DNA of 64,000 bases, taken from NCBI GenBank assembly GCA_029202385.1, contig CP119314.1, positions 3,350,501 to 3,414,500 on the forward strand, written 5' to 3'. Shown here one piece after another: positions 1,195 to 22,050 of this stretch. Each line of letters starts with the position of its first letter. The first letter of the stretch is position 1. Source of the stretch: Candidatus Sphingomonas phytovorans (GTDB taxonomy: Bacteria > Pseudomonadota > Alphaproteobacteria > Sphingomonadales > Sphingomonadaceae). The translations under genes were made by a program, and so were the position numbers. Under the pieces are notes generated by a model that was not told the origin of the DNA, searched no databases, and was given only the letters and a program-made list of their open reading frames with translations.

Positions 1195-4100
1195 ATGGAT
1201 CGCACAAAGGGACTTTCATTGATCGCGCTGGCGGCGGCGCTTGCCGCGCCGGCCATGGCGCAGGCAAAGCCGGTCGAGGGCACGCTGGCACGGCAGATGC
1301 AGTTCGACATCGGTGCATCCGACCTGCGCAGCGCCATCTCGCGCTTCTCGCGTGCGACGGGCGTGCAGGTCATCGTGGCGCCGGACGTCGTCGCGAAGCG
1401 CCGCACCGCCGGCGTGCGCGGCGCGCACAGCGTGCGTGAAGCACTCGACCTGATGCTGCGCGGCACCAACCTGTCGGCGTCGATCAGCGATGGCGTGGCT
1501 GTGCTGAAGCCGGTCGCCGCGGCTCCGGCCGCGATCCGCCGCCCCGCGCACGCCGTGCGCGAGATTGCAGATATCTCGGCAGCGGGCGCAGCACCGGAAC
1601 AGGAGACCTCTGTCGCACCCGATATCATCGTGTCAGGCTATCGCCAGAGCCTCACGCGGGCGCAGGACCTCAAGCGCCGTGCGATCGGATCGGAGGACGA
1701 TATCCTGGCGCAGGATATCGCCGCCTTTCCCGATCTGAACCTCGCTGAATCGCTCCAGCGCGTTCCCGGCATCACCATCACGCGCGATTCAGGCGAAGGC
1801 CGCCAGATCGCGCTCAGGGGCCTGGGCGCCGAATTCACCCGTACCCAGCTCAACGGCATGGAAGTGCTGGGCAACACCGCATCGGGCATGGACAATCGCG
1901 GCGGCGTCAGCCGGTCGCGCTCGTTCGACTACAGCCTGTTCGCGTCGGAACTGTTCAACCGCGTGTCGGTGCAGAAATCCTACGCAGCCGAACAGGACGA
2001 GGGCGGCATCGCCGGCACCGTGGGGCTGACCACCGCCAAGCCGTTCGATTACAACGGCTCGAAATTCGTCGTCTCGGCGAAGGGCCAGACCAACACCAAC
2101 ACCAGCGGCATCACGCCGCGCGTCGTCGGCCTCGCGTCCGGACACTGGGGCGATTTCGGCGCACTCGTCTCCGTCGCGTACAGCCAGATCAAGAGCAACG
2201 AATACGGCTATCGCAACTGGGGCTGGGGCTATGTCAAATATGCGCCCGGCAATATCGGCCCCAATATCGACGCAGCGACCTCACAACTGCTTCAATCGGG
2301 CACTATCGTCGCCCCCCAGGCTGAATCGCCTTCGACCTGGTACACCGACCGCAAGCGGCTGGGCGTCACATCCTCGCTGCAATATCATCCCGGCGACCGG
2401 TTCAAGATCGATGTCGACTTCCTCTACGGCCGACTTTGGGATTACCGCGACGACTATGCCATCGCCAGCGCCGGCAGCAACGCGCTGACCGGCGCCACCG
2501 TCAATGGCGGCCAGATCATCCAGTCAGCGGTGATCGACGGCAACACGCTGCGCGCGGCGAGCTATACCGGCATCGACCAGCGCTCCGAGCACCACATCGT
2601 CAAGAACCACACCGATTTCTACCAGGGCGTGGCCAATGCGAGTTGGAAGGTGACCGATCGCCTGACGATCACGGCACTGGCCGGCTATGAGGAATCCGAC
2701 TTCAGCCAGCCTGTGTTCGACAAGGTGTTCATGGAGGCCAAGAACATGGCCTTCAGCTTCGACACCCGGCCGACCATCCCGGTCAACACCTATGGAAGGG
2801 ACCTGACCGACCCCAACAACTGGACGTTGCAACGCCTCGACGTGCAGGAAAACGGGATCACCAGCAAATATGCCAACGGAAAGCTGGCCGCCGCCTACAG
2901 CGCGACCGATGCGCTGACCTTCAAGGTCGGCGGCGAGTTCAAGCATTTCAGCAACAGCGGCTATATCTATGTCAACAAGGTGTTCCACAACGTCCCGGCC
3001 AATGTGGCGATTCCGAACAACCTGAAAGAAGTGATTGGGCGGGATTCGCTGCTGCCCTATATCGTCGGCAACGTGGACGGGGTGTACGCCTATATCGGCG
3101 ATCCGCGGGACCTGTCGGCGAAATACCTGCAGGCCGGCAGCGACTATCTGGTCGACGAGAAGACCTGGAGCGGCTTCGCCCAGGTCGATCTCGATACTCA
3201 TGTCGGCGGCATGCGCCTGCGCGGCAATGCCGGCCTGCGCTATTTCTCGACCGACCTGACCTCGTCGGGCCATCTCACTGCACCGGTGAACGGCGTGAAT
3301 ACGCTCGTGCCGGTGGTGATCGGCACCAATAGCAGCGGCTGGCTGCCCGCCGCCAATTTCGCGCTCGACGTCGCTAAAGACGTGGTGGTCCGGCTGAGCG
3401 CGAGCCGCAACGTCAACCGGCCGGCGCTGGGCGACCTGGCGGCGGCCGGCACGCTCACCACCCGGCCGAACGGCGGGAGCGCCTCCTTCGGCAACCCCTT
3501 CCTGAAGCCCTACAAGGCAACCTCGGTGGAGGGCTCGATCGAATATTACATGGATCGCACCGGCTTCGCCTCGATAGGCTTCTTCTACAAGCACATGGAC
3601 AGCTTCATCACGTCGAGCAGCACGACGATCCCGTACAGCCAGACGGGCCTGCCGCTGTCGCTGCTGATCCAGGGCCAGGACGGCAACACGCCGTACGATG
3701 TGAGCCGGCCCGTCAATGGCCCCGGCGCCGACATCAAGGGCATCGAGGTGGCGTTCCAGCACGACTTCACCTTCCTGCCGGCCCCATTCGACCATCTCGG
3801 CGTCGTCGCCAACGGCACCTGGTTCGACGGGCACCAGAAGGCGATCTACACCTCGGGCACCACGATCAGGATCGAGACCCTGCCGCTGCTCAACCTGTCC
3901 AAATGGGCCGCGAACGTCACCCTCTATTACGAGGACAAGGACTGGGGCGTGCGCGTGTCGGACGCCTATCGCAGCCAGTATCTGATCAACACGGGCAATG
4001 TCGCCAACACCGGCGACGGCATCAAGGGCACCAACAACATCGACTTCCAGGCGCATTACAACATCACGCCGAAGATCCGCGTCGTGGCCGAGGGCATCAA

Positions 4101-7386: not shown

Positions 7387-8133
7387 CTATCGGTACAACC
7401 GCACGAAATCGCCCTGCGTCGCGTAGTCCAGCCGCTCGCGATAGTCGCGATGCTCCGCCATGCCCGGAACGACGCGGCCGATGACGGGGTCGGCCTGGGC
7501 ATCAAGCTTCGCCAGGGCGACAGGACAGGCGACCGGAACGAGCTGCGAGCCTGTGCCGACCTGGAGCGTGGTCATCACACCGTACAATGCCCCCTCGATC
7601 GTCGGGCGGCCGAGGATCACGAGCCGGTGCTGCCCCGCCACATTGGTGACGAGATAGATATGGCCCGACAGGTTCGGCATCGAGACGTGCCCGGCCTGTT
7701 CGAACCGGGCGTCAGTGCGCTGCGATTCAGCAAAGCCGAGATGCCCCGCCTCGTCGATCCAGCGGATCGTGGTGACATAGGCGAAAATGTCACCCGGACT
7801 GCCGAAGCTCGGCCGCAGCGTCAGATAGCGGCCCTCGATCCAGCGTACCGCGGCACGGGCATAGGCCCCCATGGTTTCGGGCGCGAGGTCGTTGGAGGCG
7901 GCGGCCGGCGGCGGCGCTACCGGACGGAGCGTCACGCCCAGCGCTTCCTCCAGGCGGATCGTCGTCGCCAGCGTGAAGGGACGCCCGCCGGACAGCGCCT
8001 TTTCCAGGGTCGACAGGCTGATCTTCGCCATATCGGCCAGCGCCTGGCGCGAGATTCGGCGACGCGCAATCTGCTCACGCACGCGGCGGCCGACTTCGCG
8101 CGTCTCGCCCTCAAGAAGGTCGCGGTCCTGCAT
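7387..8133 (-). CDS. XRE-family transcriptional regulator with C-terminal sensor-like domain
   Basis: A 248-residue protein. The start ATG at 8133 has a GAGGAGAG ribosome site; the frame is open further upstream without one. Residues about 15-65 form an XRE helix-turn-helix (ISRQALADMAKISLSTLEKA). The rest (about 85-245) is a beta-rich domain with YLTLRPSFGSPGDIFAYVTTI and HVSMPNLSGHIYLVTNV. I recognise this layout as an HTH regulator carrying a ligand- or protein-binding domain often seen in alphaproteobacteria, but not its ligand. It lies directly beside the left edge of the phage-derived island and faces away from it. It could be a cellular regulator or a remnant of phage control; its base composition matches the chromosome. 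Confidence 0.75.
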   Translation of the reverse strand: MQDRDLLEGETREVGRRVREQIARRRISRQALADMAKISLSTLEKALSGGRPFTLATTIRLEEALGVTLRPVAPPPAAASNDLAPETMGAYARAAVRWIEGRYLTLRPSFGSPGDIFAYVTTIRWIDEAGHLGFAESQRTDARFEQAGHVSMPNLSGHIYLVTNVAGQHRLVILGRPTIEGALYGVMTTLQVGTGSQLVPVACPVALAKLDAQADPVIGRVVPGMAEHRDYRERLDYATQGDFVRLYR

Positions 8134-8278
8134 TCTCTCCTCTTTCTCCGATAAGTGACTACCACATCTTTCCGCACCGCCCGTCAACTGGCCTGTCGGG
8201 CGCCAACGCACCAGAACAGCACCTTTTTCGTGGCACAGGCCAATTGTCCGAACCGCCGCTGCCGCGCCGCGCGCCCTT

Positions 8279-8306
8279 GATTCAAACCCTGTCGCAGCTG
8301 GCCTAA
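8279..8306 (+). promoter_or_regulatory. Promoter-like motif GATTCAAACC-N13-CCTAA ahead of the tail genes
   Basis: GATTCAAACC at 8279-8288 is followed after exactly 13 bases by CCTAA at 8302-8306, nine bases before the start codon of tail tubular protein A. The same two boxes with identical spacing occur at 18581-18608 ahead of the tail-fibre gene. It does not match the usual sigma-70 boxes. If CCTAA were a -10 element, this transcript would be nearly leaderless. It may be a phage-specific promoter or another control site. Confidence 0.35.
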
Positions 8307-8315
8307 TCCCGCCGC

Positions 8316-8960
8316 ATGGCCATCAGCATCACTGTCTGCAATCTCGCCCTTGGCGAGCTTCGCGCACCCCCGATCGTCGATATCGATGAGGCGACCACCG
8401 AGGCGGCTGAGTGCAAGCGCTATTATGCGCATTGCCTCAAGCTACTGCTCGAACGCTTCGACTGGAGCTTCGCCACGCGGATCGCCTCGCTCGCCGAACT
8501 GAACGTGAATCCGCGCGCGAGCGAATGGGCCCATGCCTATGCGCTGCCCGCTGATCTCGCCACCGCGCAGCGGCTCGTACCGCCGGCAAGCGGCTGGCCA
8601 AGCGGCGCGACGAACCGTCCCGTCGCGCCGGTGCTGGCCCAGCCCTTCATCATTGAGGATGGCGTGCTGTTCAGCCAGATGCGCGGGGCAATCCTTGAAT
8701 ATACCACGCGGGACGTGAGCGAGGCGGACATGCCCGGCCTGTTCTGCGACGCGCTGGCCTATGCCGTCGCGGCCCGGCTAGCCGTGCCGCTGCGCGACAG
8801 CCGGGAGACCAAGGGACAGCTGCTCCAGCAGGCCGAGGTCGCTGCCCAACGCGCCATCGCCGACGACATCAACCGCCAGCCCAATCGCGATGCACGCACG
8901 CCCGATGAAGTCGCGGCCGCGCGCGGTGCCGGGGCCGGTTGCGCGAGCGGAGCGAACTGA
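8316..8960 (+). CDS. T7 gp11-like tail tubular protein A
   Basis: A 214-residue protein that I recognise as the tail tubular protein A (gatekeeper) family of T7-like phages. An N-terminal helical bundle begins ITVCNLALGELRAPPI, with DIDEATTEAAECKRYYAHCLKLLLERFDWSFATR matching the helix that ends in the conserved W-x-(F/W) region. The middle is beta-rich and the C-terminus is low-complexity (AARGAGAGCASGAN). In such phages this protein forms the ring between portal and nozzle. It overlaps the next gene by one base (TGATG), as in a compact phage operon. No portal or capsid gene precedes it: the upstream neighbour is a chromosomal regulator on the other strand. Confidence 0.75.
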   Translation: MAISITVCNLALGELRAPPIVDIDEATTEAAECKRYYAHCLKLLLERFDWSFATRIASLAELNVNPRASEWAHAYALPADLATAQRLVPPASGWPSGATNRPVAPVLAQPFIIEDGVLFSQMRGAILEYTTRDVSEADMPGLFCDALAYAVAARLAVPLRDSRETKGQLLQQAEVAAQRAIADDINRQPNRDARTPDEVAAARGAGAGCASGAN

Positions 8961-9958
8961 TGCCGCTTCGCACCGGACAACCGAATTTCTCCAAGGGCGA
9001 GCTTGCCGAGGATCTGATCGCACGCGTCGATGTCGCTGCTTATGCGACCGGCCTGCGACGCGCGCGCAATATCATCATCCTCAAATATGGCGGCGTGACC
9101 AAGCGCCCCGGCACGCGGCTGGTCGCCGAGGTCTATGCGGACCGGGGCGTCCGGCTGATGCCGTTCCAGTTCTCGATCGACCAGACCTATGCCCTCGAAA
9201 TGGGGCAGGGTTATATGCGCCCCGCGGCGCTCGGCGGCCTGTTGCTCGAAGACAAGCTGTCGATCATGAGCATCACTCTCGGCGCCGTCACCACGATCCA
9301 GGCGGCCTATCACGACTATGCGGTCGGCGATCAGATCTATCTTTCGGGCATTGAGGGAACGACCGAGCTGAACGGCCGGGTCGCCCGCATCCTCAGCGTT
9401 TCGGGAGGAAGCACCGCCGGTGGGACCTTCACGATCGACGTCGATTCGACCGGGTTCACACCGTTCACCGCCGACACCGGCGGCACGGCCAGGCCGGGGA
9501 TACCCCCGCCGCCACCGCCGCCGCCGCCCGTTCCACCAACAGCGCCACCACCGCCGCCACCCGATGTGGGCGGGGGCGGCGGCGGAAGGGGCGACTATTG
9601 CGTTGCCGACGACACACCGATCATGATGGCGGACGGACGGGAGATCGAAGCCCGCCACGTCAAGGTCGGCATGCAGGTACGGACGCAGCATGCCGCGACG
9701 ATGGAATGGGGCAACTATCCGGTCGAAGCGGTCAGTGCCGCATGGCAGCCCGTATTTGCCTGCGCTCTTGATGGGGTAACGATCCGCGCGACCGCGGAAC
9801 ATCGCTTCCGGATCGGCGACGACTGGGTCCGCGCCGACACGATCGGCACCGCAGCCGGGTCCGCCTGGGTTGCGCGGATCACGATCGCTGACGCCCATAC
9901 TTACATCTCGGCCGGCATCCTGTCCCACAACAAGGTCTGGGAGCGGAACTATGACTGA
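8960..9958 (+). CDS. Tail tubular protein B, N-terminal part, fused to a Hint (intein-like) domain
   Basis: A 332-residue product starting in the TGATG overlap at 8960. Residues 1-95 match the start of T7 gp12-like nozzle proteins (GQPNFSKGELAEDLIARVD, ARNIIILKYGGVTKRPGTR, FSIDQTYALE). Residues about 100-180 are the beta module usual in these proteins (GDQIYLSGIEGTTELNGR). Then come a proline-rich run (182-201), six glycines (204-209), and a Hint domain from Cys214 (YCVADDTPIMMADG, block A) through TAEH (278-281, block B) to His323-Asn324 (ISAGILSHN, block G). The residue after Asn324 is Lys, not Cys/Ser/Thr, so ordinary splicing is unlikely while C-terminal cleavage remains possible. A TGA at 9956-9958 ends the frame; the same frame continues into the next gene, which holds the rest of tail protein B. 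Confidence 0.8.
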   Translation: MPLRTGQPNFSKGELAEDLIARVDVAAYATGLRRARNIIILKYGGVTKRPGTRLVAEVYADRGVRLMPFQFSIDQTYALEMGQGYMRPAALGGLLLEDKLSIMSITLGAVTTIQAAYHDYAVGDQIYLSGIEGTTELNGRVARILSVSGGSTAGGTFTIDVDSTGFTPFTADTGGTARPGIPPPPPPPPPVPPTAPPPPPPDVGGGGGGRGDYCVADDTPIMMADGREIEARHVKVGMQVRTQHAATMEWGNYPVEAVSAAWQPVFACALDGVTIRATAEHRFRIGDDWVRADTIGTAAGSAWVARITIADAHTYISAGILSHNKVWERNYD

Positions 9959-9967
9959 GCATTTCGC

Positions 9968-11944
9968 ATGAGCGTCGCCCGCATCTATCGCGTCGGCTCA
10001 CCTTTCAACGGCGAGGAACTGCCGGAAGTCGACTTCGAGCAGTCGGCCGACACCATGTACCTGGCGCACCTCAACCATGCGCCGACCAAGCTTGTCCGCA
10101 AGAACCATACGGCCTGGACCTTCTCGACGATCGCCTTCACCCCGACGCTCGTCGCCCCGGCGAGCGTCAGCGTCACCGCGACCACCCCGAACACCACCGA
10201 GATATTCTACCAGCCCGCCCGATATGTCGTGACCTCGATCGACGATGCCAGCGGCACGGAGAGCCGTGCCTCCATCGCGCAGTTCGCCAGCAACGACCTG
10301 ACGCTGAAGCGCAACTATAACAGCATAGGGTGGGCGGCGGTGGCCGGTGCGTCGCGGTACCGGGTCTACAAGGCCGACAACACCCAGGAATTCGGCTATA
10401 TCGGCACCACGACGAGCCTGAGCTTCGTGGATGACAATATCGGCCCGGATTATTCCGACGGGCCGCCGATCGCCACAAACCCTTTCGATGACTTTCCCGC
10501 CGTCGTCACGGCGAGCATCGCCGGATCCGTGATGACCGTGACCGCGGTGACGAGCGGCGAGATCAGCGAAGGCAAAACGCTTTCCGGCACCGGCATAACG
10601 GCCGGCACGCTGGTGGTCGGACAGCTTACCGGCGCGACTGGGGCCGCAGGCACCTATACCGTCACGCCATCGCAAACGGCAGCAAGCACGGCGGTCACCG
10701 CGAAGGACCTGCGGAACTACCCCTCCACCATCACCTTCTTCGAGCAGCGCCTGCTCTGGGGCCGCACGACAAGTCATCCCAATGCGATCTGGGGCTCCCG
10801 GTCGGGCAGCTTCGAGAACATGGATATCTCGCGCCCGCTCAAGGCATCGGACAGCCTGAGCTTCGCGCTCGTCTCGGGGCGGGTCAACGCGGTGAACCAG
10901 CTCGTCTCAACGACCAGCCTGCTCGCCCTCACTTCGGATTCCATCTTCAGGATCGAAGGGGGACAGAATGGCTATCTGACCGCGACCGACTTTGTAAGCC
11001 GACGCCAGAATGGGCGCGGATCGGCGCGCCTGTCTCCGCTGGTGATCGACAGCGTCGTCTTCTACCAGACCAGCGTCGGCAACGGCGTGCGGACGCTTGG
11101 TTATGAATTCTCGAGCGACAGCATCAATTCCAACGATGTGACGATCTTCTCCCCACATCTGTTCCGTGGCTTCAACGTCACATCATGGGCCTATGCGCAG
11201 GAACCCCGATCGCTGATCTGGGCGGTTCGCGACGACGGCAAGCTGCTGTGCTTCACCTGGGAGCAGGAGCAGCAGGTCTGGGGCTGGACGATCTGCGAGA
11301 CCGATGGCCTCGTCGAGAGCGTCTGCGTGATCTCCGAAGGTGGCGAGGACCGGCTCTACCTGACCGTGCGACGGAACGGGAAGCTGCTGATCGAGCGCAT
11401 GGCGACGGCCAGATGGGATGCCGTGGAGGATTGCTGTTTCCTCGACAGCGCGGTCAGCTATCGTTTCGAAACGCCGCAAACCGTGCTGCGAAACCTGCAG
11501 CATCTGGAAGGCAGGACTGTCTCGGCCCTTGCCGATGGCGGGGTCGTGACGGGGCTGGTTGTCGGCAATGGCAGCGTCACCCTGCCCGAGCCGGCGAGCA
11601 AGGTGACCATCGGTCTGCCCTACAGCGCCACGATCGAGACTTTGCCGCTCGCCTGGCAGGGCCAGGGCGGCTGGACGATCGCCAAGCCGCAGACCCAGGC
11701 CAGGGCGGTGGTCCGGCTGGTTAACAGCCGCGGCGTGAAGGCGGGGCCGACCGACGCGACGCTCGAACCGCTCCGCGCCCGCATCAACGAGCTTCCCGGC
11801 CAGCCCCCCCAGCTGATGACAGGCCTGTACGGAACCTATCTGCGCGCCGACATCAATGGCGGCGCGCGCATGGTGGTGAGATCGGACGATCCGCTGCCGA
11901 TGACCGTGAGTGCGATCTATCTCGACCCCTCCGTCTCCGAATAA
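9968..11944 (+). CDS. Tail tubular protein B, C-terminal part (nozzle)
   Basis: A 658-residue product beginning [20 protein letters not shown] and [20 protein letters not shown], the signature that in gp12-like nozzle proteins normally follows the beta module without a break. It is in the same frame as the preceding gene, separated by one TGA and three codons. ATG 9968 lacks a strong ribosome site; a six-codon frame (ATG 9951) ends over it in ATGA, so reinitiation is conceivable. Residues about 178-246 are a Gly/Thr-rich beta module ([17 protein letters not shown]) that looks inserted. The remainder has the nozzle core: [43 protein letters not shown]. Together the two parts exceed T7 gp12 in length, mainly because of the Hint region and this insert. 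Confidence 0.8.
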
Positions 11945-12398
11945 CCGGGTCGCGCTGGTCAGCGCCACGCCAGTCCATGTCGGCCCGATCGCATCGCGGA
12001 TGCGCGAGGCCGATGTGACCGAGTGCGCGGCGATGGGCCATACGCCAAGACAGGCGTTGCGGGCTGGCCTGCTGTCCTCCTCATTATGCCTTACCGCCAC
12101 GGTCGACGGGCGGCCCGAGGCGATGTTCGGCCTGGTGGTGACGAACGCACTGTGCGGCGAGGGGGCGCCCTGGATGCTCGGCAGCGACGCGATCTACCGC
12201 CACCCGCGCACGATGCTGCGCTGGGGCCCGCGCATCCTTTCGGCGATGTTCGATTCAACCCCGGTGCTGGAGAACCTAGTAGCGGAAGACAATCACCGCG
12301 CCGTCCGCTTCCTGCGGCGGATCGGCTTCACCATCGGAAAGGAGGTGATCATGATCGCCGGAACCCGCTTCGTCCCCTTCTCCCAGGAGCGCCGCTGA
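11910..12398 (+). CDS. T7 gp13-like virion protein (DUF2833/acetyltransferase-like)
   Basis: A 162-residue protein from a GTG at 11910, overlapping the nozzle gene by 35 bases; no better start exists before residue 30. It resembles the gp13/DUF2833 family of T7-like phages, a small GNAT-like fold: an N-terminal [16 protein letters not shown] segment, [19 protein letters not shown], then the conserved C-terminal pattern [20 protein letters not shown]7 gp13 is needed for virion assembly; an acetyltransferase activity has not been shown to my knowledge. Its place between nozzle and gp14-like genes matches T7 order exactly, which supports the assignment. It ends in TGATG, overlapping the next start. 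Confidence 0.65.
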
Positions 12399-12955
12399 TG
12401 TGCGAACCCACAACCGCTTTGCTGATCGCCTCCACCGCCATGTCGAGCATCGGCGCCGTGACGGCCGGCATCGGGCAGGCCCAGCAATATCGCTATCAGG
12501 CGCAGATTGCCGACCAGAATGCCCGGCTGGCGAATGAACAGGCGCGCGATTCGATCGAGAATACCAATCTGGAGGCGCAACGTCGCTATCGCGACCTGGC
12601 CCAGATGAAGGGCGCGCAGACCGCCGCGATGGCGGCGAACGGCGTCGATCTCAATTTCGGATCACCGGTCGATATCCAGAAGGATACCGCGATGATCGGC
12701 GCCGAGGATATCGGCCAGATCTACAAGGGCGGCAACGAACGGACGCGCGGCTTCGACATCAACGCGTTCAACTACAGATCCGAGGCCTCGGCGAACCGCG
12801 CCAAGGCAAGCGGTGCGCTGATGAAGGGTGTGTTTGACGGGCTCTCGACGGCGTTGGGCGGTGCCTCGCAAGTCGCGGGGAAGAAGAATCCGGTTGGCAA
12901 GAAATCAGCCCCGCCAGCGCAAAACCCGTTCGCCTCTCCACTGCCGAGGACTTAG
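12398..12955 (+). CDS. T7 gp14-like internal virion (ejectosome) protein
   Basis: A 185-residue protein; ATG 12398 overlaps the previous stop. The frame is open far upstream, but that part is antisense-like. It starts with a hydrophobic, Gly/Ala-rich segment ([19 protein letters not shown]), then long alpha-helical stretches rich in Ala, Gln and Arg ([34 protein letters not shown]), and a basic Pro-rich tail. This matches small internal virion core proteins that insert into the outer membrane during DNA ejection in T7-like phages. The gp15 and gp16 genes expected next are missing; the stop overlaps by four bases the stop of a glutaminase gene on the opposite strand. Confidence 0.6.
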
Positions 12956-13917
12956 CTGTCATTGACTTTCAGTCCCGCCCGGGGATCGGAAGGCTCGAAC
13001 ACTGACCAGCCGGTACGTTGCACCAGCCGCTCCAGCGCCAGTGCGCCCAGTTGCGATGTACCACGCGGGTTGAGACCGGGCGACCACACGGCGATCGACG
13101 CCTTCCCGGGCGCGATCGCCAGGATACCGCCGCCGACGCCGGACTTGCCCGGCAGGCCGACACGGAAGGCGAACTCGCCCGACCCGTCGTAGTGGCCGCA
13201 GGTCATCATCAGCGCGTTGATGCGCCGTGCGCGCTGGGTCGATACGATCGAATGGCCGGTCGCCGGGTTGATTCCGCCAGCCATGAGATACCTGCCCGCA
13301 AGCGCGAGCTGGCGGCAGCTCATCGCCAGCGCGCATTGATGGAAATAGACGCCAAGCGTCCGTTCGACCGGATTGCGGACATTGCCGAACGCGCGCATAT
13401 AATTGGCCAGCGCAATGTTGCGGAAACCAGTCGCCTGCTCGGCCCGCGCGATGCGTTCGTCGATGAAGATGCTGTCGTCGTCCGCCAGCGATCGGACGAA
13501 GCGCAGGATTTCACCGATCGCCTCGACCGGTTCGTACGCGCCAAGGATCATGTCGGCGACGACGATCGCGCCAGCGTTGATGAAGGGATTGCGCGGGATG
13601 CCGGATTCAGTCTCGAGCTGGACGATCGAGTTGAACGCGCTGCCCGATGGTTCGCGCCCGACCCTGTCCCACAGCCTGTCACCGATCGCGCCCAGCGCCA
13701 GGGTCAGGCTGAACACTTTCGAGATGCTCTGGATCGAGAAGGGTTCTTCCGCATCGCCCGCCATATGGCAGGTGCCGTCCGCCTCGATCACCGCGATGCC
13801 GAACTTGCCGGCGGTGACCTCTGCGAGGCCGGGGATATAATCGGCCACGGTGCCGCGATCCGGCGCGTCCGCCATCTCGGCCGCGATATCGACGACGATC
13901 GTTTCGAGGGAAGCCAT
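12952..13917 (-). CDS. glsA: Glutaminase
   Basis: A 321-residue serine-dependent beta-lactamase-fold glutaminase that hydrolyses L-glutamine to glutamate and ammonia in the cytoplasm. The SxxK motif is Ser64-Ile-Ser-Lys67 ([11 protein letters not shown]). Other family marks are [45 protein letters not shown], and the C-terminal [15 protein letters not shown]. Length is normal and all key regions are intact. It lies 40 bases downstream of the P450 gene on the same strand and could be the last gene of that operon, though a functional link is not obvious. Its 3' end converges with the phage gp14-like gene, with a four-base overlap of stops. Confidence 0.95.
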
Positions 13918-13957
13918 AGGTGTTGTTAGCGAGCCCCGCCCGCATAATCACGCTGCT

Positions 13958-15190
13958 TCAGTCGAACTCCACCGTCAGCGATTCAGCAAAGGCCCCGTTC
14001 TTGCGCAGCTTGCCGGCAGCACCCGGCGCGCGGCGCAGATTCTCGCGCTTCAACAGCGGCTTCAGCATCAGGTGAAGCGTGGCGTTGTTGATGTGGATAC
14101 CGAAGCATTGATGCAGGTCATAGCCGAAATGAATATATTCGTGCGGCAGCCGGCACGGATCAAAACGCTCCGGATCCGGCACCCGACGCCCGTCGCGCAT
14201 TGCGGAGGCAAAGGCGGCAAGCACCGTCGATCCAGCTGGAATGGTGCGCTGATGCCTGGTGCCCTGAGCAACCGTCCAGTCCTTCAACACCACGCGCGGC
14301 AAGCCGGGGGCGAGCGGATCGAAGCGCATCGCCTCGCGAACATAGCCGGCGAGCAGCACGACATCCCCGGCGCGCGCCGCTGCCTGGGCACCCCGCAGCG
14401 CATCGGGCCGGCGCAGCAGCTGCTCCATCGCCTGGGGCACGACCATCGGCGGCTGGGGCGGACCGCCGACGATGAAGCCCATCAGTGCGGTGCGGATCTG
14501 CGCATCGCTGAAACCAGGTTCACCCGCCTTTTGCAGCTTGAGGCAACGAGCGAGAACATCGTCCACCTTGCCCGGCGCGGCACGGCGTGCCTCGATCTGC
14601 CGCTGGATATGGTCGCGCAGGGCCGGCGCGATCTCGGCAACCTCGGCGAGCAGCGGCGCATCGCTGGCGACGAACTGATATTCGAACAACCGCGTGCCCC
14701 AGACACGCAGGTCGCCCCCCGGGGGCGCCGGGACGCCGAAATAGTCGGCAAGGAAATCGAAGGTGACGCGCCGCACCAGCATATCGACCACCTCGATCCG
14801 GCCGCCTGCGCCGGCGACGATCGCCTCGGCCTGCGCCTCGACCTTTGCCGCGAGCAGCGGCAGGTCGGCCGGCCGGACGACCTTGCGCATCGCCGCGGTA
14901 TCGGCGCGATATTGCGGGGTATCGCCCATGCCGAGGAAGAAGGGCTCCCCGCCCATGATGATGTCGAGCTTTTCCTTGTAGGTGACGCCGAACGCCGGAT
15001 CGGTCGCGAACACCTCCCGCACGTCATCGTACAAAGTGACCACATAGGTCTTGCCGAAGCGGGGGATCGGCTTCAGCCGGCGCAGCAGCCGGAAAGCGAA
15101 CGGCATCGCCGCCATCACGCCTTGCATCAGCAATCGCTTCAGGCCCGTGGGGCCGGGCCGTAGCACCTCGGTCGAGGAAAGCACGCTCAT
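13958..15190 (-). CDS. Cytochrome P450 lacking the acid-alcohol pair in the I helix
   Basis: A 410-residue haem-thiolate protein; ATG 15190 overlaps the DyP stop (ATGA). The haem-binding loop is FGYDLHQCFGIHIN with Cys362 as axial ligand. The K-helix ExxR is Glu286-Arg289 (VREAMRFDP). In the I helix, where monooxygenases have (A/G)Gx(D/E)T, this protein reads FIVGGPPQPP (242-248): both the acidic residue and the threonine are absent and two prolines pairs break the helix. P450s that rearrange or cleave hydroperoxides, such as CYP74 enzymes and prostacyclin synthase, also lack this pair, so a peroxide- or hydroperoxide-using reaction is more likely than O2-dependent monooxygenation. No ferredoxin or reductase gene is nearby. 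It is coupled to a DyP peroxidase gene. Confidence 0.85.
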   Translation of the reverse strand: MSVLSSTEVLRPGPTGLKRLLMQGVMAAMPFAFRLLRRLKPIPRFGKTYVVTLYDDVREVFATDPAFGVTYKEKLDIIMGGEPFFLGMGDTPQYRADTAAMRKVVRPADLPLLAAKVEAQAEAIVAGAGGRIEVVDMLVRRVTFDFLADYFGVPAPPGGDLRVWGTRLFEYQFVASDAPLLAEVAEIAPALRDHIQRQIEARRAAPGKVDDVLARCLKLQKAGEPGFSDAQIRTALMGFIVGGPPQPPMVVPQAMEQLLRRPDALRGAQAAARAGDVVLLAGYVREAMRFDPLAPGLPRVVLKDWTVAQGTRHQRTIPAGSTVLAAFASAMRDGRRVPDPERFDPCRLPHEYIHFGYDLHQCFGIHINNATLHLMLKPLLKRENLRRAPGAAGKLRKNGAFAESLTVEFD

Positions 15191-16779
15191 AGCGACGCCA
15201 GATAGCGCAGTGCCGGGATGCTCGGCAGGAAGAAATAATCCCCGCCGGCCATGCGGACAAAGGTCTCGACATCGACGATCCGGCGCAGCGGCTGTTCCCG
15301 GATCGTCATCTTGCCCTTGGGCCCGATCAGCGGATCGGTCTCGTCGAACAGGGTCGCGAAGTTCGGGTTGAGCAACCAAGTCTGCTGCACGAACTCGAAC
15401 TGGCGGGCGATGTCGGTGTTGAGGCAGATGAACAGCAGCCCGCGATCGACCCCGTCCTCCTTTGGCGGCACGCTGATCGTCGAGCCATATTTCCGGCCGC
15501 GGCGCAGGATGCGGTGGTTGTTCGCAGCGTCGAGCAGGGTCTGCTTGTCGCCAGTTGTGGGCGCAAGACCGTCTCGCGGGTTGGAGCGACGGACATGTGA
15601 CCCAGCCGGGCAGCCGACACCGTGCAGATCGCGGTCGAAAAAGCCGAAATCATTCTCCGGCTGCTCATAGGCATCGGGCGGCAGATAGCCGGCCGGACAG
15701 AGCAGATCGCCCTTGGTGTTGCGGCCGACCACCCGCTCGGCAAGCCAGGTGGTGGTAACGTGCGCCGATCCTTCCGGATCGCGCTCGCGGATATGCGCGG
15801 CATTCGCGCGCATCGATTGCCAGAAGGCGACGACATCCTGCTTCAGCTCGCGCACGACCATGTAGCTGCCGTCGAGCCCGAGATCGAGCGAGCCCTCCGC
15901 CAGCGGATGCGGCGGCAGGCCGGCGGCCCGTGCCTTGTCATCGTCGGGCACGATCGGCCCGGGCGCCTTTTCGTGGTGGCCGTTGGTGTGGCCGAACAGG
16001 ATCTCGCCAAGCGGCACGCCGTTCCAGAAATCGCGCACGGCCGGGGCACCCGTACTGAGGACGATCGCGTCCTCGTCATCGAACGGGATCGGCTGCGAGA
16101 TGCCGTCGGCGAAACCGAAATGCTCGCGCGCGACACCCTTCTCATCCGGGCGCAGATCAAGCGGCAGGCGGTGGACGACCTGCACGTCATGCGGCTTCAG
16201 CGCCGCCTCGACCTGTTCGGCCCAGGCCTCGGCGCTGTCCTCGTCCTTGTCGTAGAGCAGCAGCAGGGCATGGACGGTCACCGGCGTGACGATCTGTTCC
16301 TCGCGATGCCCGGTGGAGGTGCTGGAACGCGATTGTCCCGCTTCCACGCTGGTCAGGGCACTGCGCTGCCGCGCGTTCGAGCTCCATTTCGGCCCGCCTT
16401 CGATGACCGTGCCGAGCCATTCGCCCTTGCGGCGATCACCCAGGCGACGCAGCCGGTCCTCCTGGAACATCCCCTCCTTGAACGGTGCAGCAAAGGAGTC
16501 GAGCGCGGGTTTCGGCAGGCCCATCTTTTCGAGCCCGGCATAGGCGAAGGAGATCGCGGTCGCCCGCGCGTCGCGCCCGTCAGCATCGGTGACCGGCGCG
16601 AGTTCCTGGACTGTCCGGAGCCAGGCACCGCCGCCCTTCCCCTTCCAGGTGAATTCGAGGAACAGGGCCCGCCCGGTCGGCAATGAAGCGAAGCCGCTGA
16701 CAACCAGCCCCTGAGTCAGGGTGCAGTGCGGCGCCTTCAGCTGCCAGCTCGGCGGCTTTTTCCGCGGCGTCTCGCTCAC
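15187..16779 (-). CDS. DyP-type haem peroxidase
   Basis: A 530-residue protein. GTG 16779 overlaps the upstream stop (GTGA); a GTG at 16794 is the alternative. It carries the DyP catalytic GxxDG motif as GFADG (222-226, Asp225) and the proximal haem ligand His395 in CPAGSHVRRSNPRD. The C-terminal ILRRGRKYG and GLLFICLNTDIARQFEFVQ are typical of the longer DyP subfamilies. There is no Tat or Sec signal, so it is probably cytoplasmic, unlike EfeB-type DyPs. It uses peroxide to oxidise organic substrates. Tight coupling to the P450 downstream and a membrane protein upstream suggests a three-protein pathway acting on a lipid or lipid hydroperoxide; that substrate is my inference. Confidence 0.92.
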   Translation of the reverse strand: MSETPRKKPPSWQLKAPHCTLTQGLVVSGFASLPTGRALFLEFTWKGKGGGAWLRTVQELAPVTDADGRDARATAISFAYAGLEKMGLPKPALDSFAAPFKEGMFQEDRLRRLGDRRKGEWLGTVIEGGPKWSSNARQRSALTSVEAGQSRSSTSTGHREEQIVTPVTVHALLLLYDKDEDSAEAWAEQVEAALKPHDVQVVHRLPLDLRPDEKGVAREHFGFADGISQPIPFDDEDAIVLSTGAPAVRDFWNGVPLGEILFGHTNGHHEKAPGPIVPDDDKARAAGLPPHPLAEGSLDLGLDGSYMVVRELKQDVVAFWQSMRANAAHIRERDPEGSAHVTTTWLAERVVGRNTKGDLLCPAGYLPPDAYEQPENDFGFFDRDLHGVGCPAGSHVRRSNPRDGLAPTTGDKQTLLDAANNHRILRRGRKYGSTISVPPKEDGVDRGLLFICLNTDIARQFEFVQQTWLLNPNFATLFDETDPLIGPKGKMTIREQPLRRIVDVETFVRMAGGDYFFLPSIPALRYLASL

Positions 16780-18416
16780 AGGTCGTTGATCCACGCGGAC
16801 GCCTCCTTGTTCGTGAGCGACGGTTTGCGCAGGCCGTTGGCGATGCGGTTGTTGCGTTCGACCTGATCGACGGTCAGGTCGCTATAGGCGCTGTACCAGA
16901 AGCGGCTGACCGCCATTGAATGGCGCGCCCAGCCCTTGAACTTGCGGCCATGGCTGGCGCCGTCCTGGATGAGGAAACGCGTCGCCGGGAAGCCAACGCC
17001 GCATCCCCAGGCGAGGGTGAGGCCGACATGCGCCTTCTCGATGAAATCATCGAGATAACTTTCCCAGCTCTGATCGAAATTGCTGAAGAACATCAGCCGG
17101 CTGCCATTGTTGACGAATGCCCAGTGCGCGAAATGGACGGTGCGCATGCTGCCGAGATAGCCGCGCACGCCGCTGTTCGGCATCGCGCGCAGCACCAGCC
17201 CGAGCCCGTGATGACCGGCGCGGACGATGATGGTGCGCAGCACGCCCGGCTTGATCAGCACGACCGAGCCCATGTGGTTCTGCGGAATCCAGTCCTCGCG
17301 CTGCGCCATCTGGCGCACCATCTCCTCATCGATCGGCGGCTCGTCCTGCGAGGAATCGCGCCGTTCGAGATAGCGCAGCCAGCAGAGGATCAGCAGCACC
17401 GAGAAGGGTACGCTGAGGAGGCCGAACAGCGTGATCCGCGGCGCATGCTGACGCGCCAGCTCGAGCGGCAGGCCGGTCATGATCGAGATGGTGATGGTGA
17501 TAAGCGGTGCGAGCACCGCGTAGAGGATCGCCCCAACCAGGATCAGCACCAGGGTCTGCGGCTTGAACAGGGCAGTGATCAGGTTGAACGTCCCCGCCGT
17601 GTCAGTGCCCGGCAGCGGCTCGCGGATCATGTAGAGGCGGATACCCGTGTAGATCAGGCCGAAGGCGAGCAGCAGGAAGAAGCGTTTGTCCGGCATCAGC
17701 GGCGCGAGGATCAGGCCCGGCAGCGCCAGTGCGAGGACGACGAGCAGGGCAAAGACCGCCACCTTGAGATAATCGCCGCAACGCGTGAAGAACGGGATAC
17801 GAGCCGGCGCGCGTTCGGCAAGCCAGGGAAAGGCGGGCAGCAACGCACTACGGAGATGGTGGTGGATGTCGGCCGGGGTCACCGCGCCACGATAGGGGCT
17901 TGGCCCGGTACCGTTGGCGGTCGCGATCTCGGTCCGGGTCGCGCGAAACAGGTCGCTCTCGGCAAGGATTCGGTCGCGGGTCATGCCGCGATTGCCGTGA
18001 TGGTAGACACTCGGCTCAAGCGAGCGCGCCTCCATATAGGGCGCGACCGGCGCCCGCGAATCCGGCGCCGTCACCGCATCGTAAAGCGGCCCGCATGGAT
18101 CCAGCGGGCGCTTGCAGCACCGCAGCATGTTACGCAGGTCAATGCCGATCGCTGCCTCGAGCTGCCCCCAGAAGATGCCGGGCGCCCCGTCGAAATTGGC
18201 CTCGAGCACGAACAGCGGATCATAGTCAGCGCCGGGGAACATGCTCATCGACAGGAAATGCACCGACGGCACGCCCCGCATGAACCAGGCATAGTCGCCG
18301 GGGCCACCCGCGCTCGCGGCGGAGCCGTTGTCGTGCAGCCGGTCGATCAGGGCGGAAAGCTTGACCTGGCTTTCCGGCTTGACCTCCAGTGCCACGGACA
18401 AAGTCGTTTGTCGCAT
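16776..18416 (-). CDS. Membrane protein with duplicated soluble domain, first gene of the haem-enzyme operon
   Basis: A 546-residue protein from ATG 18416, preceded by AGAGGA. I do not recognise a named family. Layout: a soluble N-terminal domain (about 1-205), four membrane segments (about 216-240, 246-264, 288-313, 328-350), and a soluble C-terminal domain (about 380-546). The two soluble domains look related. VHFLSMSMFP at 52-61 followed by LEANFDG and a helix aligns with VHFAHWAFVN at 427-436 followed by FFSNFDQ and a helix of similar length. Each suggests a ferredoxin-like alpha/beta fold, the fold DyP peroxidases also use, but no haem ligand can be assigned. Overlap with the DyP start (GTGA) and strict order suggest a membrane platform or substrate-delivery partner for the two haem enzymes. 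Confidence 0.7.
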   Translation of the reverse strand: MRQTTLSVALEVKPESQVKLSALIDRLHDNGSAASAGGPGDYAWFMRGVPSVHFLSMSMFPGADYDPLFVLEANFDGAPGIFWGQLEAAIGIDLRNMLRCCKRPLDPCGPLYDAVTAPDSRAPVAPYMEARSLEPSVYHHGNRGMTRDRILAESDLFRATRTEIATANGTGPSPYRGAVTPADIHHHLRSALLPAFPWLAERAPARIPFFTRCGDYLKVAVFALLVVLALALPGLILAPLMPDKRFFLLLAFGLIYTGIRLYMIREPLPGTDTAGTFNLITALFKPQTLVLILVGAILYAVLAPLITITISIMTGLPLELARQHAPRITLFGLLSVPFSVLLILCWLRYLERRDSSQDEPPIDEEMVRQMAQREDWIPQNHMGSVVLIKPGVLRTIIVRAGHHGLGLVLRAMPNSGVRGYLGSMRTVHFAHWAFVNNGSRLMFFSNFDQSWESYLDDFIEKAHVGLTLAWGCGVGFPATRFLIQDGASHGRKFKGWARHSMAVSRFWYSAYSDLTVDQVERNNRIANGLRKPSLTNKEASAWINDL

Positions 18417-18634: not shown

Positions 18635-20953
18635 GTGGCCGCAATCAGTCCGAACATTTCAAGCGAACCCCAGAATGGCACCGGCACACAGGCCGAGTTC
18701 CCATTCAATTTCTCGATCGTCGCAGCGACGGATGTCGGCGTTTATGTCGACGGCGTCCGCAAGACCTATTCGACACACTATGGCGTCACCTTCGGCGCCA
18801 CCTCCGGCACGGTGACCTTCACCACGCCGCCAGCCAGCGGGACGCGAATCCAGCTTATCTCCGAACCGGATTATCTCCAGACCAGCGAATTCGCGGACCA
18901 GGGCGCGTACAATCTTTCGACCGTGAACATGATCAACCGGCGCGGGGCGATCCGGGATCTGGTCAACCACGATTTGGGCACGCGCGCGCTTAAGGTGCCG
19001 TTGGGCGATCCCGCGCCCACCTTACCGCCGGCCTCGGAGCTTGCAGGCAAGGTGCTCGGCCATGACGGAACGCAGTTCATCGCGGTGCCGAACGACGCAA
19101 CATCTGTAGCAGAGGCCGTAATGGAGAGCCAAGCCGCGCGAGACATAGCATCGGCAGCCGCCAGACAGACAGCACTTGATCTTGCGACCACAACTCTTGC
19201 AGTTGCCGCCCTTCCCATTCGCTATACTAAGAGCACCTCAACGACGATCACGGCAGATGCGACGCTGAACATCGACACCGATCTTTCAGTGCCATTGGCC
19301 GCAAACACACTAACCCGAATCAACGGCAAGATCTATTTCACCACCACTGCGGCGGCAGATTTCAAGTGGCGCCACCTCGGCCCCGCCGCAGCCACGAGAA
19401 TTCGCGTGCAGCACTATAGCATCGCTCCGGGGGACGCCGCTCTAAGTAATATCGCTGTGGATACCACTTTCAGTGCGGCGGACATCTCGATAACAGGAGC
19501 GGCCGGGTCGGGCTGGATCGAGATAGATGCACTTATCGCAAACGGGCCGAATGCCGGCAGCTTCGGCATATCCTGGTCACAGAATACGTCCGACATTGGA
19601 AACACCGTAGTCGAAGCTGGCAGCTATCTAGAGGCGGTCAGACTTCCGATAACCTTGGACGTAGCATTCGGAGACAGCGCAGTAGCCAAGCTAGGCGGAT
19701 ACGCTGCTCCGGTCGCCTCAAGTGGGCATAACGTGGTGGGGGTCCCCGGTTTGGGAATGGGCCTTGGGAACTGTTACCTTGATACGATGATCCGTGGCAC
19801 GGACCTCTCCGCGCAACTCTTCGGAGGAAACTACACGCTTCAGATAGATGGAGGAACCCCAACCACAATTGTAGCCCCCGCAGGCTGGTCTTTCGTCCCA
19901 CTCTTCCGCCTTCCCGAGGGAAATCATCGGATCAAGTTGAAGGGCCAGTACTTTGACAACGATCTTTGCTATCGTATTGCGGGGATCGCCCCTCAAATAA
20001 CCCGCCCTTCGGACGTACCCAATTTCTATCCGGTGGGCACGGCCCCGTATTCAAATTATATCGCAGCCGAAGGCATAACCGGCAGCGCCTCGCTGTACGC
20101 GACTGGGAACGAGCAACGCTATTGGTCGCAGCCTAGCGGCTGCGGACTAAGGTTTGCAGCCACCACAACCTCAGTGCGCCTCTGGATGTTCAACGGCTTC
20201 GGCACAGGAGCAATCGTTCTGCTGCAGGACGGAGTGGAGATAGCCTCGGTCACTCCTACCATGTCTTCCAACTATGAGGTCGTCGCCCTTGCTACAGGCC
20301 TGTCCGGGACCCACGAGTATGAGGTCAAGTTCATCTCGGTTAGCGCCACGATCTATGTCAATGCTATCCTCGTAGACAGTCTAAGCGCTTCCTTACATAC
20401 CCCCAAACAAGTGGACGCGTATTTCGGGGACTCCATCGTACAGGGAAACGCCCTCGCCTCCCAAGCAGACTCACGTCTCATGGACCCTTACATCCTCGCG
20501 CAGGCCACAGGCAGGGTTTCCATCAGGCGGGGTGGGTCAGGAGCCAAAGTCTCTACAGGCCTTCGTGATACGACCTCCCAGATAACTAGCCTAACCTCTA
20601 TTCCCACCCGCGTCTTCTGCGCTGGCGGCGTCAATGACATGATTACGGGGGTCCCGATCGCCACCTTCCGGTCCGACTACCAGACCATGCTTTCCCTCAT
20701 CCGTGCGGGGCTACCTTCAGCGAAGATATATGCACGAGGCATCCTTTCTGTAGGAACCACCATTGCGAACTACGCGCAGCGGAACACCTACAACAGTGCA
20801 ATATTGGCGGCCGTGACTGCGATTGGGGACGCCAACATCATTTTTGTCAACACAGATGGCTGGATCGATCCAGTGACGGACACCTCCGATGGCCTCCATC
20901 CGAACGCCTCAGGTTACGCCAAGGTGGCAGCCGCTCAACAACTAACGTTGTAA
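18635..20953 (+). CDS. Tail fibre with C-terminal SGNH-type esterase domain
   Basis: A 772-residue protein from GTG 18635 with a strong AGGAGGTG site. Residues 1-150 match the T7 gp17 N-terminal virion-attachment region (GTQAEFPFNFSIVAATDVGV, GTRIQLISEPDYLQTSEFAD, GAYNLSTVNMINRR, LKVPLGDP). A short helical region and beta-rich modules follow; the module at about 480-585 resembles the jelly roll that precedes SGNH domains in CE2-like esterases. The last 180 residues are an SGNH hydrolase: block I FGDSIV with Ser600, block III GGVND, block V DGLHPN with Asp752 and His755. It should bind a surface polysaccharide and probably remove acetyl or other acyl groups from it. Codons in the 3' two thirds are visibly richer in A and T than neighbouring genes, which suggests recent exchange. 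Confidence 0.8.
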   Translation: MAAISPNISSEPQNGTGTQAEFPFNFSIVAATDVGVYVDGVRKTYSTHYGVTFGATSGTVTFTTPPASGTRIQLISEPDYLQTSEFADQGAYNLSTVNMINRRGAIRDLVNHDLGTRALKVPLGDPAPTLPPASELAGKVLGHDGTQFIAVPNDATSVAEAVMESQAARDIASAAARQTALDLATTTLAVAALPIRYTKSTSTTITADATLNIDTDLSVPLAANTLTRINGKIYFTTTAAADFKWRHLGPAAATRIRVQHYSIAPGDAALSNIAVDTTFSAADISITGAAGSGWIEIDALIANGPNAGSFGISWSQNTSDIGNTVVEAGSYLEAVRLPITLDVAFGDSAVAKLGGYAAPVASSGHNVVGVPGLGMGLGNCYLDTMIRGTDLSAQLFGGNYTLQIDGGTPTTIVAPAGWSFVPLFRLPEGNHRIKLKGQYFDNDLCYRIAGIAPQITRPSDVPNFYPVGTAPYSNYIAAEGITGSASLYATGNEQRYWSQPSGCGLRFAATTTSVRLWMFNGFGTGAIVLLQDGVEIASVTPTMSSNYEVVALATGLSGTHEYEVKFISVSATIYVNAILVDSLSASLHTPKQVDAYFGDSIVQGNALASQADSRLMDPYILAQATGRVSIRRGGSGAKVSTGLRDTTSQITSLTSIPTRVFCAGGVNDMITGVPIATFRSDYQTMLSLIRAGLPSAKIYARGILSVGTTIANYAQRNTYNSAILAAVTAIGDANIIFVNTDGWIDPVTDTSDGLHPNASGYAKVAAAQQLTL

Positions 20954-21205
20954 TGCTCAATGGCAAAGTATCTTTGGCAACTATATCTACAGCGCGTGAC
21001 CTTACGCTTAGCATCTCACTCGGCGCCTTTCGGATTTACGGGGACTTTACTATACGCTTCGCATTACACTTTGACATACTCACGCATAAACCAAGGCCAG
21101 TCATATATGTCAAAAGCCACGAAGATAAAGCCTTGCATTATACCAGCAACCCGTTCGCCTTATTATCCAATTTCCAATTGTTGATATTTTCTTGGATTTA
21201 ACAAT
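20954..21205 (+). other. AT-rich gap between tail fibre and lysis cassette
   Basis: About 250 bases of clearly lower GC than the rest of the window. An 82-codon frame (20953-21201) fills it but starts on the fibre's stop, has no ribosome site, shows no recognisable protein pattern, and is matched by a competing frame of similar length. I see no convincing gene, hairpin terminator or promoter. It is probably leftover sequence from fibre-gene exchange. Confidence 0.5.
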
Positions 21206-21511
21206 ATGACAGAACAACTCGATACTACAGGGATGATGCTAGGTGAGATGAAGGGTCAACTTCGTGAAGTTATCCACAATTTGAACATGATGTCGACCAA
21301 ACTTGATGCACTCGGCGAAAGGGTAATCAGCGCGGCCGACCTTCCGGTCAAGGTCAAGGAACTCGAAAAGCGCGTGCTAGCGCTCGAAGCGGACAGACAT
21401 CGCCGCGACGGAGCAATGAGCTTCGGCGGCTGGGTTGTTCGCTCACCTCTCGTCGGCTGGCTGGCCGGCGCGGGGCTCGCCCTCTGGATGCTATTGAAGG
21501 GAAAGCCGTGA
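21206..21511 (+). CDS. Coiled-coil protein with C-terminal membrane anchor (lysis cassette)
   Basis: A 101-residue protein. Residues about 5-70 form a heptad-rich coiled coil (LREVIHNLNMMSTKLDALGE and VKVKELEKRVLALEADRHRR) and residues about 80-97 a membrane segment (VGWLAGAGLALWMLL) with a short basic tail. Small proteins of this build are common just before endolysins in phages, where they act as holin accessory or antiholin-like factors; that role is inferred from position. The stop overlaps the start of the endolysin gene. Start ATG 21206 is preceded by an AT-rich leader rather than a strong ribosome site. Confidence 0.6.
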   Translation: MTEQLDTTGMMLGEMKGQLREVIHNLNMMSTKLDALGERVISAADLPVKVKELEKRVLALEADRHRRDGAMSFGGWVVRSPLVGWLAGAGLALWMLLKGKP

Positions 21512-22050
21512 TGAAGACGATTGACGCAGTGATCGAACAAGTGCTGGCGAACGAGGGAGGCTATGTCAATAACCCCAACGACGCCGGCGGCGAGACGAAC
21601 CACGGCATCACCGCAGCAATCGCGCGCAGCCAAGGCTTTACGGGGCCGATGCGCGCCATGACGCGGGCCTTCGCCTTCGAGATTTATCGGCGTCGTTATG
21701 TGATCGCGCCAGGCTTCGACCAGATTGCCACGGTATCAATGCCGGTTGCTGCAGAACTGGTCGATACCGGCGTGAATATGGGCCCGGAGGTCGCCACGGC
21801 TTTCCTGCAACGCTCGCTCAACGGACTCAATAACGGCGCACGGGATTATCCGGACCTTACCATCGATGGAGCGGTTGGCACGGCGACGCTCGCCGCATTG
21901 AAGGCGTTTCTTGCCAGACGCGGAGCGGAAGGCGAACGGCGACTGCTCGTGCTGCTCAACGCCCTTCAAGGTGAGCGCTATCTCTCGCTGACTGAAGACC
22001 GGACCGCCAACGAGGCCTTTCTGTATGGCTGGCTGGCGAGGGCGGCGTGA
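21511..22050 (+). CDS. Endolysin: GH108-type N-acetylmuramidase with C-terminal peptidoglycan-binding region
   Basis: A 179-residue cell-wall hydrolase. ATG 21511 follows GAAGGGA at a suitable distance; a GTG directly before it (21508) is possible. The N-terminal domain has the glycosyl hydrolase 108 signature with catalytic Glu15 in NEGGYVNNPNDAGGETNHGI. The C-terminal part (about 85-179) is the associated PG-binding-3 type domain: ELVDTGVNMGPEVATAFLQR, DLTIDGAVGTATLAAL, YLSLTEDRTANEAFLYGW. It cleaves the glycan backbone of peptidoglycan. There is no signal peptide, so it should depend on the holin encoded downstream. It is intact and full length, which suggests that lysis function has been kept. 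Confidence 0.93.
   Translation: MKTIDAVIEQVLANEGGYVNNPNDAGGETNHGITAAIARSQGFTGPMRAMTRAFAFEIYRRRYVIAPGFDQIATVSMPVAAELVDTGVNMGPEVATAFLQRSLNGLNNGARDYPDLTIDGAVGTATLAALKAFLARRGAEGERRLLVLLNALQGERYLSLTEDRTANEAFLYGWLARAA

Follow-up and report, generated by a model that had tools for sequence, protein, structure and literature searches.

A split tail nozzle gene in a sphingomonad phage locus and a putative self-processing Hint domain with a recurrent lysine at the end of its first chain

The window, a stretch of 64,000 nucleotides from the chromosome of Candidatus Sphingomonas phytovorans (contig CP119314.1, positions 3,350,501 to 3,414,500), carries a phage tail nozzle (tail tubular protein B) that reads in one frame except for a TGA, with a Hint domain lying just before it, raising the question of where the nozzle chain ends and what a Hint domain would do there. 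Re-reading of the window confirmed the positions given in a preliminary description for the open frame, the TGA, the three codons after it, the ATG at 9968 and the Hint motifs. The explanation favoured here, with a probability of about 0.6, is a split nozzle carrying a self-processing Hint domain of the type A BIL kind, for which a nearby lysine would be the likeliest amine. The features concerned are as follows.

8316 to 8960, plus strand: tail tubular protein A gene, matching phrog_394 (tail protein, E 1.9e-38); its stop overlaps the start of the nozzle first chain
8960 to 9958, plus strand: nozzle (tail tubular protein B) first-chain gene, 332 aa, matching phrog_376 at 5-108 and 8ck1_A at 13-107
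8960 to 9259, plus strand: nozzle N-terminal module, residues 1-100, from the phrog_376 and 8ck1_A matches
9281 to 9484, plus strand: FCCH-type beta domain, residues 108-175 (PF16190, E 3.3e-7)
9494 to 9586, plus strand: Pro run and six Gly, residues 179-209, a flexible arm present in Hint-less homologues too
9599 to 9931, plus strand: Hint/BIL-type domain, Cys214 to Asn324, from alignment and predicted model
9791 to 9802, plus strand: Hint block B, T278 to H281
9926 to 9931, plus strand: Hint H323-N324
9932 to 9955, plus strand: C-terminal tail KVWERNYD, with the Lys325 codon at 9932-9934
9956 to 9958, plus strand: TGA, first-chain stop, common to loci L222 and L040
9968 to 11944, plus strand: nozzle second-chain gene, 658 aa, matching phrog_376 at 102-707 (E 6.2e-147) and 8ck1_A (Tail Nozzle, E 3.3e-69)
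12023 to 12955, plus strand: T7 gp14-like internal virion protein (PF24072; phrog_418, E 7.6e-37)

Together the two chains span the phrog_376 profile, with a sequence match over the whole family, and cover most of the solved tail nozzle 8ck1_A, of which 13-107 is covered by the first-chain profile and 112-585 by the second chain. As the chains abut in both, all of the extra sequence sits at one site of the nozzle, and the window differs from the phrog_376 nozzle in being split at about profile position 102-108 with the FCCH domain, the Pro/Gly arm and the Hint domain placed there. In structure prediction the first chain, folded alone, had pLDDT below 50 at residues 1-55.

The Hint domain named in the preliminary description was borne out, its predicted model having a complete intein/BIL fold, with Cys1 and the block B His (H281) each present in 111/111 aligned nozzle chains and T278 being Thr in 97 and Ser in 14. 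These chains, left after one of 112 rows was discarded as a chance SHN inside a fused nozzle, had been picked by the SHN motif, so that their S-H-N conservation is built in; when picked by the Cys pattern instead, 87/89 chains had the C-terminal HN. No Pfam or NCBIfam Hint model passed its cut-off on the window protein, and residues 1087-1222 of 8w20_A (1368 residues, 'Intein C-terminal splicing domain-containing protein') matched the Hint profile with E 2.6e-7. The Hint shares its fold, N-terminal Cys, block B TxxH and C-terminal HN with type A BILs (Clostridium thermocellum BIL, PDB 2lwy), while the fold, Cys1, block B His and C-terminal HN are also common to class 1 mini-inteins (Ssp and Npu DnaB). 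Class 1 mini-inteins require Cys, Ser or Thr at +1 and usually lie inside conserved enzyme motifs. None of these residues stands at +1 in the 111 nozzle chains or in 34 other tail proteins with the module, which speaks against class 1, and the presence of Cys1 throughout speaks against class 3, which lacks Cys1 and has a block F nucleophile; Myxococcus locus L228, with Thr, is an exception to the nucleophile-free +1. The earlier judgement that canonical splicing is unlikely, made from the Lys at +1 in the window, thus extends to all 111 chains. Against loci L031 and L040 dN/dS is low in the N-terminal module and in the Hint (0.11 and 0.15, respectively, for the Hint), and the Hint value of 0.44 against L222, obtained on 11 changed codons, may reflect a recent relaxation. 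Many nozzle homologues lack the Hint, which is therefore not essential to the nozzle; where present it is, judging by its conserved residues, probably active in self-processing.

The residues after the terminal His-Asn are also patterned. The +1 residue of the 111 chains is I in 49, K in 38, L in 16, V in 5, F in 2 and A in 1, with Lys at +1 in 38/111 and at +2 in 73/111 and one Lys per tail. Clustering the chains so that representatives share less than 60% identity over the final 60 residues of the Hint leaves 30, all with Lys at +1 or +2, an outcome with a chance of ~1e-18 for one randomly placed Lys per tail, a rough figure that ignores ancestry. Past +2 the tail residues vary freely, with Pro, Asp and Glu frequent, and 23/73 Hint-less tail ends have a Lys within the last ten residues. 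The idea that the Lys merely reflects the ribosome-binding site of the following gene was rejected: its codon begins 18 to 39 bases ahead of the stop, AAG (18) and AAA (2) are both used at the 20 loci, and other tail proteins share the Lys.

In the proposed mechanism Cys214 would take the chain over as a thioester by an N-S shift, aided by the block B His281, and Asn324, aided by His323, would cyclise and release the short tail. As +1 is not Cys, Ser or Thr, the branched ester of canonical splicing would not form, and the arm would then either be hydrolysed off or become attached to an amine, the likeliest being that of the Lys at +1/+2, either its side chain (giving an isopeptide bond) or the freed adjacent alpha-amine. 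The product would be an arm tip similar to that of some Hint-less homologues. Self-processing is favoured because the residues for thioester formation and Asn cyclisation are present, together with a flexible arm and a Lys nearby. The available text of PMC4031507 describes type A BILs as having an HN end and no +1 nucleophile, giving mostly cleavage, and as able to splice when a freed amine attacks the N-side thioester, and that of PMC8616854 reports an isopeptide bond to Lys for BIL2 of Tetrahymena BUBL1. BIL2 (6tmm, 6y75) is eukaryotic, lies between ubiquitin-like domains and is zinc-activated as reported, whereas the window Hint is flanked by FCCH, the Pro/Gly arm and an 8-residue tail, BUBL-type ubiquitin-like flanks being absent. 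As crystallised BIL2 has M-Q at +1/+2, unlike the Lys of the phage Hint, so that its acceptor Lys lies elsewhere and it is a precedent for the chemistry and not for the position. Unlike type A BILs, the phage Hint, with its predicted activity, forms the C terminus of a tail protein after a Gly-rich arm, with a tail of 3-14 residues and Lys at +1/+2.

That the Lys is the acceptor is a tentative reading of these tails, standing level with pure autocleavage, in which the Hint cuts off the arm, the tail is dropped with no ligation and the Lys merely positions or activates the bond after Asn. Pure autocleavage agrees with the mostly cleavage products of BILs (available text of PMC4031507 and PMC7664689), with tails that are short and variable past +2, and with the Lys seen after HN in some of the distant Hints that are internal, but a helper residue would be expected in a fixed register, which the observed +1 and +2 positions do not keep, and a throwaway tail does not explain exactly one Lys in each, the tail of locus L246 being a single Lys. 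That the Lys stands at either +1 or +2 is easier to reconcile with a flexible side chain than with a catalytic residue in a set place, although the Lys could instead orient the bond or act by charge.

The module is found on other tail proteins. Scanning viral contigs with an alignment of the Hint yielded 50 loci, namely 9 already known, 40 new with a C-terminal Hint (L181-L220, some of them from contigs that were in use before but cut differently) and L221, where the match is not C-terminal; Lys stands at +1/+2 in 39 of the 40 and at +3 in L215. Ten non-nozzle carriers were scanned, eight from L181-L220 and two (L005, L006) from genomes, of which eight match phrog_5616 (gpJ-like tip) and two phrog_1101 (hub-type tail), the L215 carrier (phrog_1101) having a GTA-type Rcc01698_C domain. 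A protein-collection search with the L197 Hint returned 35 proteins, comprising nozzle chain P0008 and 34 others, the query P0121 included. In all of these 34 tail proteins HN is followed by a hydrophobic residue, then a Lys and finally 1 to 9 further residues, and their alignment shows no variation at the Cys, the block B His, the His-Asn or the Lys; 29 matches to phrog_5616 and 6 to phrog_1101 were found. HN is followed by LK in L007 and by TK and VK in two Myxococcales loci. When the distant hub-type Hint of L215 served as query, two proteins were returned. The family is rare in bacterial genomes: at E <= 0.001 a match was found in 20/385 genomes of the class and 20/398 of the phylum, with the window's own alone close and the others at 41.5 bits or less, and in the order 36/296 genomes matched, many by the Pro-rich run only. 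Among phage records one of 50,697, MT835519 (IK), has a clear copy of the window Hint, and a search of plasmid records for the Hint gave no match. Phage Hints as such are already known, since the Hint model matches 65 predicted viral proteins (BFVD) with E <= 0.001, some of them named Hint in uncultured Caudovirales.

Among 24 distant Hint loci where an HN lies within reach, not counting L007, which belongs to the family, or L258, which is L255 cut a second time, Lys stands at +1/+2 in 11 and is absent in 11, L243 and L256 being ambiguous, so that it is neither a rule of all Hints nor confined to phage tail proteins. Eight of the distant Hints clearly end within 20 residues past HN; L255 has Cys at +1, and the other seven (L236, L239, L242, L244, L246, L247, L259) have Lys there and end in V-H-N-K plus 0 to 4 residues, L246 ending at the Lys. 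Internal distant Hints (L231, L232, L234, L257) also have Lys at +1/+2, so that it may be common to BILs in general and serve a purpose other than ligation. Across these sequences the Lys appears to be a mark of C-terminal Hints more widely, the phage family being its best sampled part.

A broader proposal, that the Gly arm, Hint and Lys tail form a C-terminal ligase cassette on several unrelated tail proteins of sphingomonad phages and others, making an isopeptide splice or cross-link through the side chain of the tail Lys, is doubtful. It is improbable that the Hint is a selfish passenger, an endonuclease-free mini-intein at permissive arm ends that removes itself and is useless to the phage. 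A passenger would suit the patchy distribution, with the Hint in 18/77 split rows labelled for the tree, six label changes forced by starred branches on the quick tree of 83 nozzle chains, and a near pair (L178/L179) of which one has the Hint and the other does not; the predicted spliced tip is also similar to Hint-less tips such as that of P0074. Such an element has no need for a Lys, and the Hint sits 3-14 residues from the C terminus of unrelated tail proteins and not at conserved active-site positions.

The TGA itself is explained by comparison of nozzle loci from viral contigs and genomes, of which 145 had both parts and 91 were left after identical ones were removed. The nozzle genes are split in 84/91 (L117 and L126 being counted as split after direct reading) and fused in 7/91. 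Among 82 measured split loci, 65 have the second gene in frame 2, 15 have it in frame 1 and two, the window and L040, have it in frame 0, and the gaps from stop to start are -1 (46), -4 (16), +4 (12), +5 (3), +9 (2), +1 (2) and 922 (1). A one-base or four-base overlap of stop and start is the usual sign of translational coupling. At L222 (Sphingomonas sp. QA11; outside the 82) the TGA and junction are identical to those of the window. At L033 the nozzle genes, both intact, lie ~0.9 kb apart with an antisense mntP between them (2295-2867, minus strand; manganese exporter, PF02659, E 1.5e-47), led by a manganese-riboswitch-like element (2881-3059, minus strand; 38 bits and E 7.4e-9, the gathering score being 45); the second gene is open, and its outlasting the insertion points to an independent gene. 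L223 has an insert between the nozzle genes similar to that of L033 in size and first bases.

The fused loci lack both the Pro/Gly arm and the Hint between the two nozzle parts; an FCCH-like stretch occupies this place in L004 and L108. In the quick tree, which has long branches among fused rows L008, L010 and L108, fused rows L004, L158 and L174 nest within split rows, suggesting that the split may have reverted or arisen more than once. On this comparison the nozzle gene is almost certainly two adjacent, mostly overlapping genes broken at a single nozzle site, and the TGA of the window would be the proper stop of the first. Of the options in the preliminary description, a two-chain nozzle made by termination and (re)initiation is therefore upheld by the 84 split loci, and self-cleavage by the Hint domain is plausible. 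It had also held that single-frame homologues without a Hint would mark a one-off mutation; such homologues exist as the seven fused loci, but the prevalence of the split argues against the mutation. The suggested alignment of homologues found the TGA at the same place in L222 and L040 and the Hint in a minority of labelled rows. In one Sphingomonas genome the first chain (P0103, 209 aa) loses frame within the Pro-coding run, for which an indel-prone tract, a sequencing error or a switch are possible readings; the nozzle locus L305 of genome G1052 has an intact Hint reading frame with SHN-KR.

A nonsense mutation that broke a formerly continuous gene in a dying prophage would account for the single frame open on either side of the TGA and for head and tail genes lying far apart on this chromosome, but it is very improbable and for the nozzle gene is refuted by the homologues, given that the second gene lies in another frame at 80 of the 82 measured loci, where the stop is out of frame and typically overlaps the next start, that the same TGA occurs in another species (L222) and in L040, and that dN/dS is low in the N module and Hint. 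Programmed readthrough of the TGA, giving a minority full-length nozzle with an internal Hint, has next to no likelihood, as the same-frame layout it would need is confined to the window, L040 and L222 and readthrough would enter another frame at those 80 loci.

The tail genes of the window lie outside any compact prophage: the genes for portal, protease and capsid are found ~57 kb upstream, and another ~20 kb separates these from the terminase. On the chromosome the terminase large subunit is near 3.274 Mb, portal-protease-capsid near 3.296-3.301 Mb, tail tube, nozzle and gp14 near 3.359-3.363 Mb, and tailspike and endolysin near 3.369-3.373 Mb. Phage structural genes extend over ~100 kb on one strand (window 8316-12955 and 18635-22050; L285 6447-11080; L298 4184-5821), with host-type genes interspersed between them. 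The region 3.290-3.370 Mb is largely syntenic with Sphingomonas sp. QA11 at 93-97% identity, in which the terminase likewise lies ~21 kb from the portal. The scattered genes may be those of a domesticated podophage, which might be a gene transfer agent with podoviral ancestry. In two complete genomes portal and nozzle are separated by ~40 kb (G1052) and ~30 kb (G1065), compared with 5-6 kb in G1105, G1125 and both copies in G1097. L114, L118 and L121 have the usual phage order, with head genes immediately before the tail tube gene; as both the split and the Hint occur in relatives with the usual order, neither depends on the scattered setting. A block of HTH regulator, tail tube, nozzle chains, gp14, glutaminase and P450 (window 7387-16794) recurs whole or in part at L110, L116, L119, L222 and L223, around nozzles as low as 69% first-chain identity, and at L116 and L223 the glutaminase is closer to that of the window than the phage genes are.

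To our knowledge, the biological role of BIL domains is mostly unclear. BIL domains have been known since 2003 (reference list of PMC4031507), and the available text of PMC3556154 describes the Hint of phage phiCbK as an intein in the terminase. The open-licence literature held no paper combining 'tail tubular protein B' with 'intein' and none mentioning 8CK1, and no phage tail BIL module appeared in the titles and abstract openings of the matches listed. The module is easily overlooked by annotation, the window protein falling below the Pfam and NCBIfam cut-offs and the phage records holding a single clear copy. What emerges is a recurrent BIL family with a well-defined position, at the ends of arms on phage tail proteins, for which the Lys at +1/+2 makes a specific chemical prediction. 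A Lys directly following the final His-Asn may be the mark of a broader class of C-terminal Hints. If the Hint ligates, it would offer a new route to covalently built parts of the virion and might serve as a tool that couples a protein C terminus to lysine, and were the cassette proposal true, the tail arms of the virion would be covalently capped or linked without ATP or a separate enzyme.
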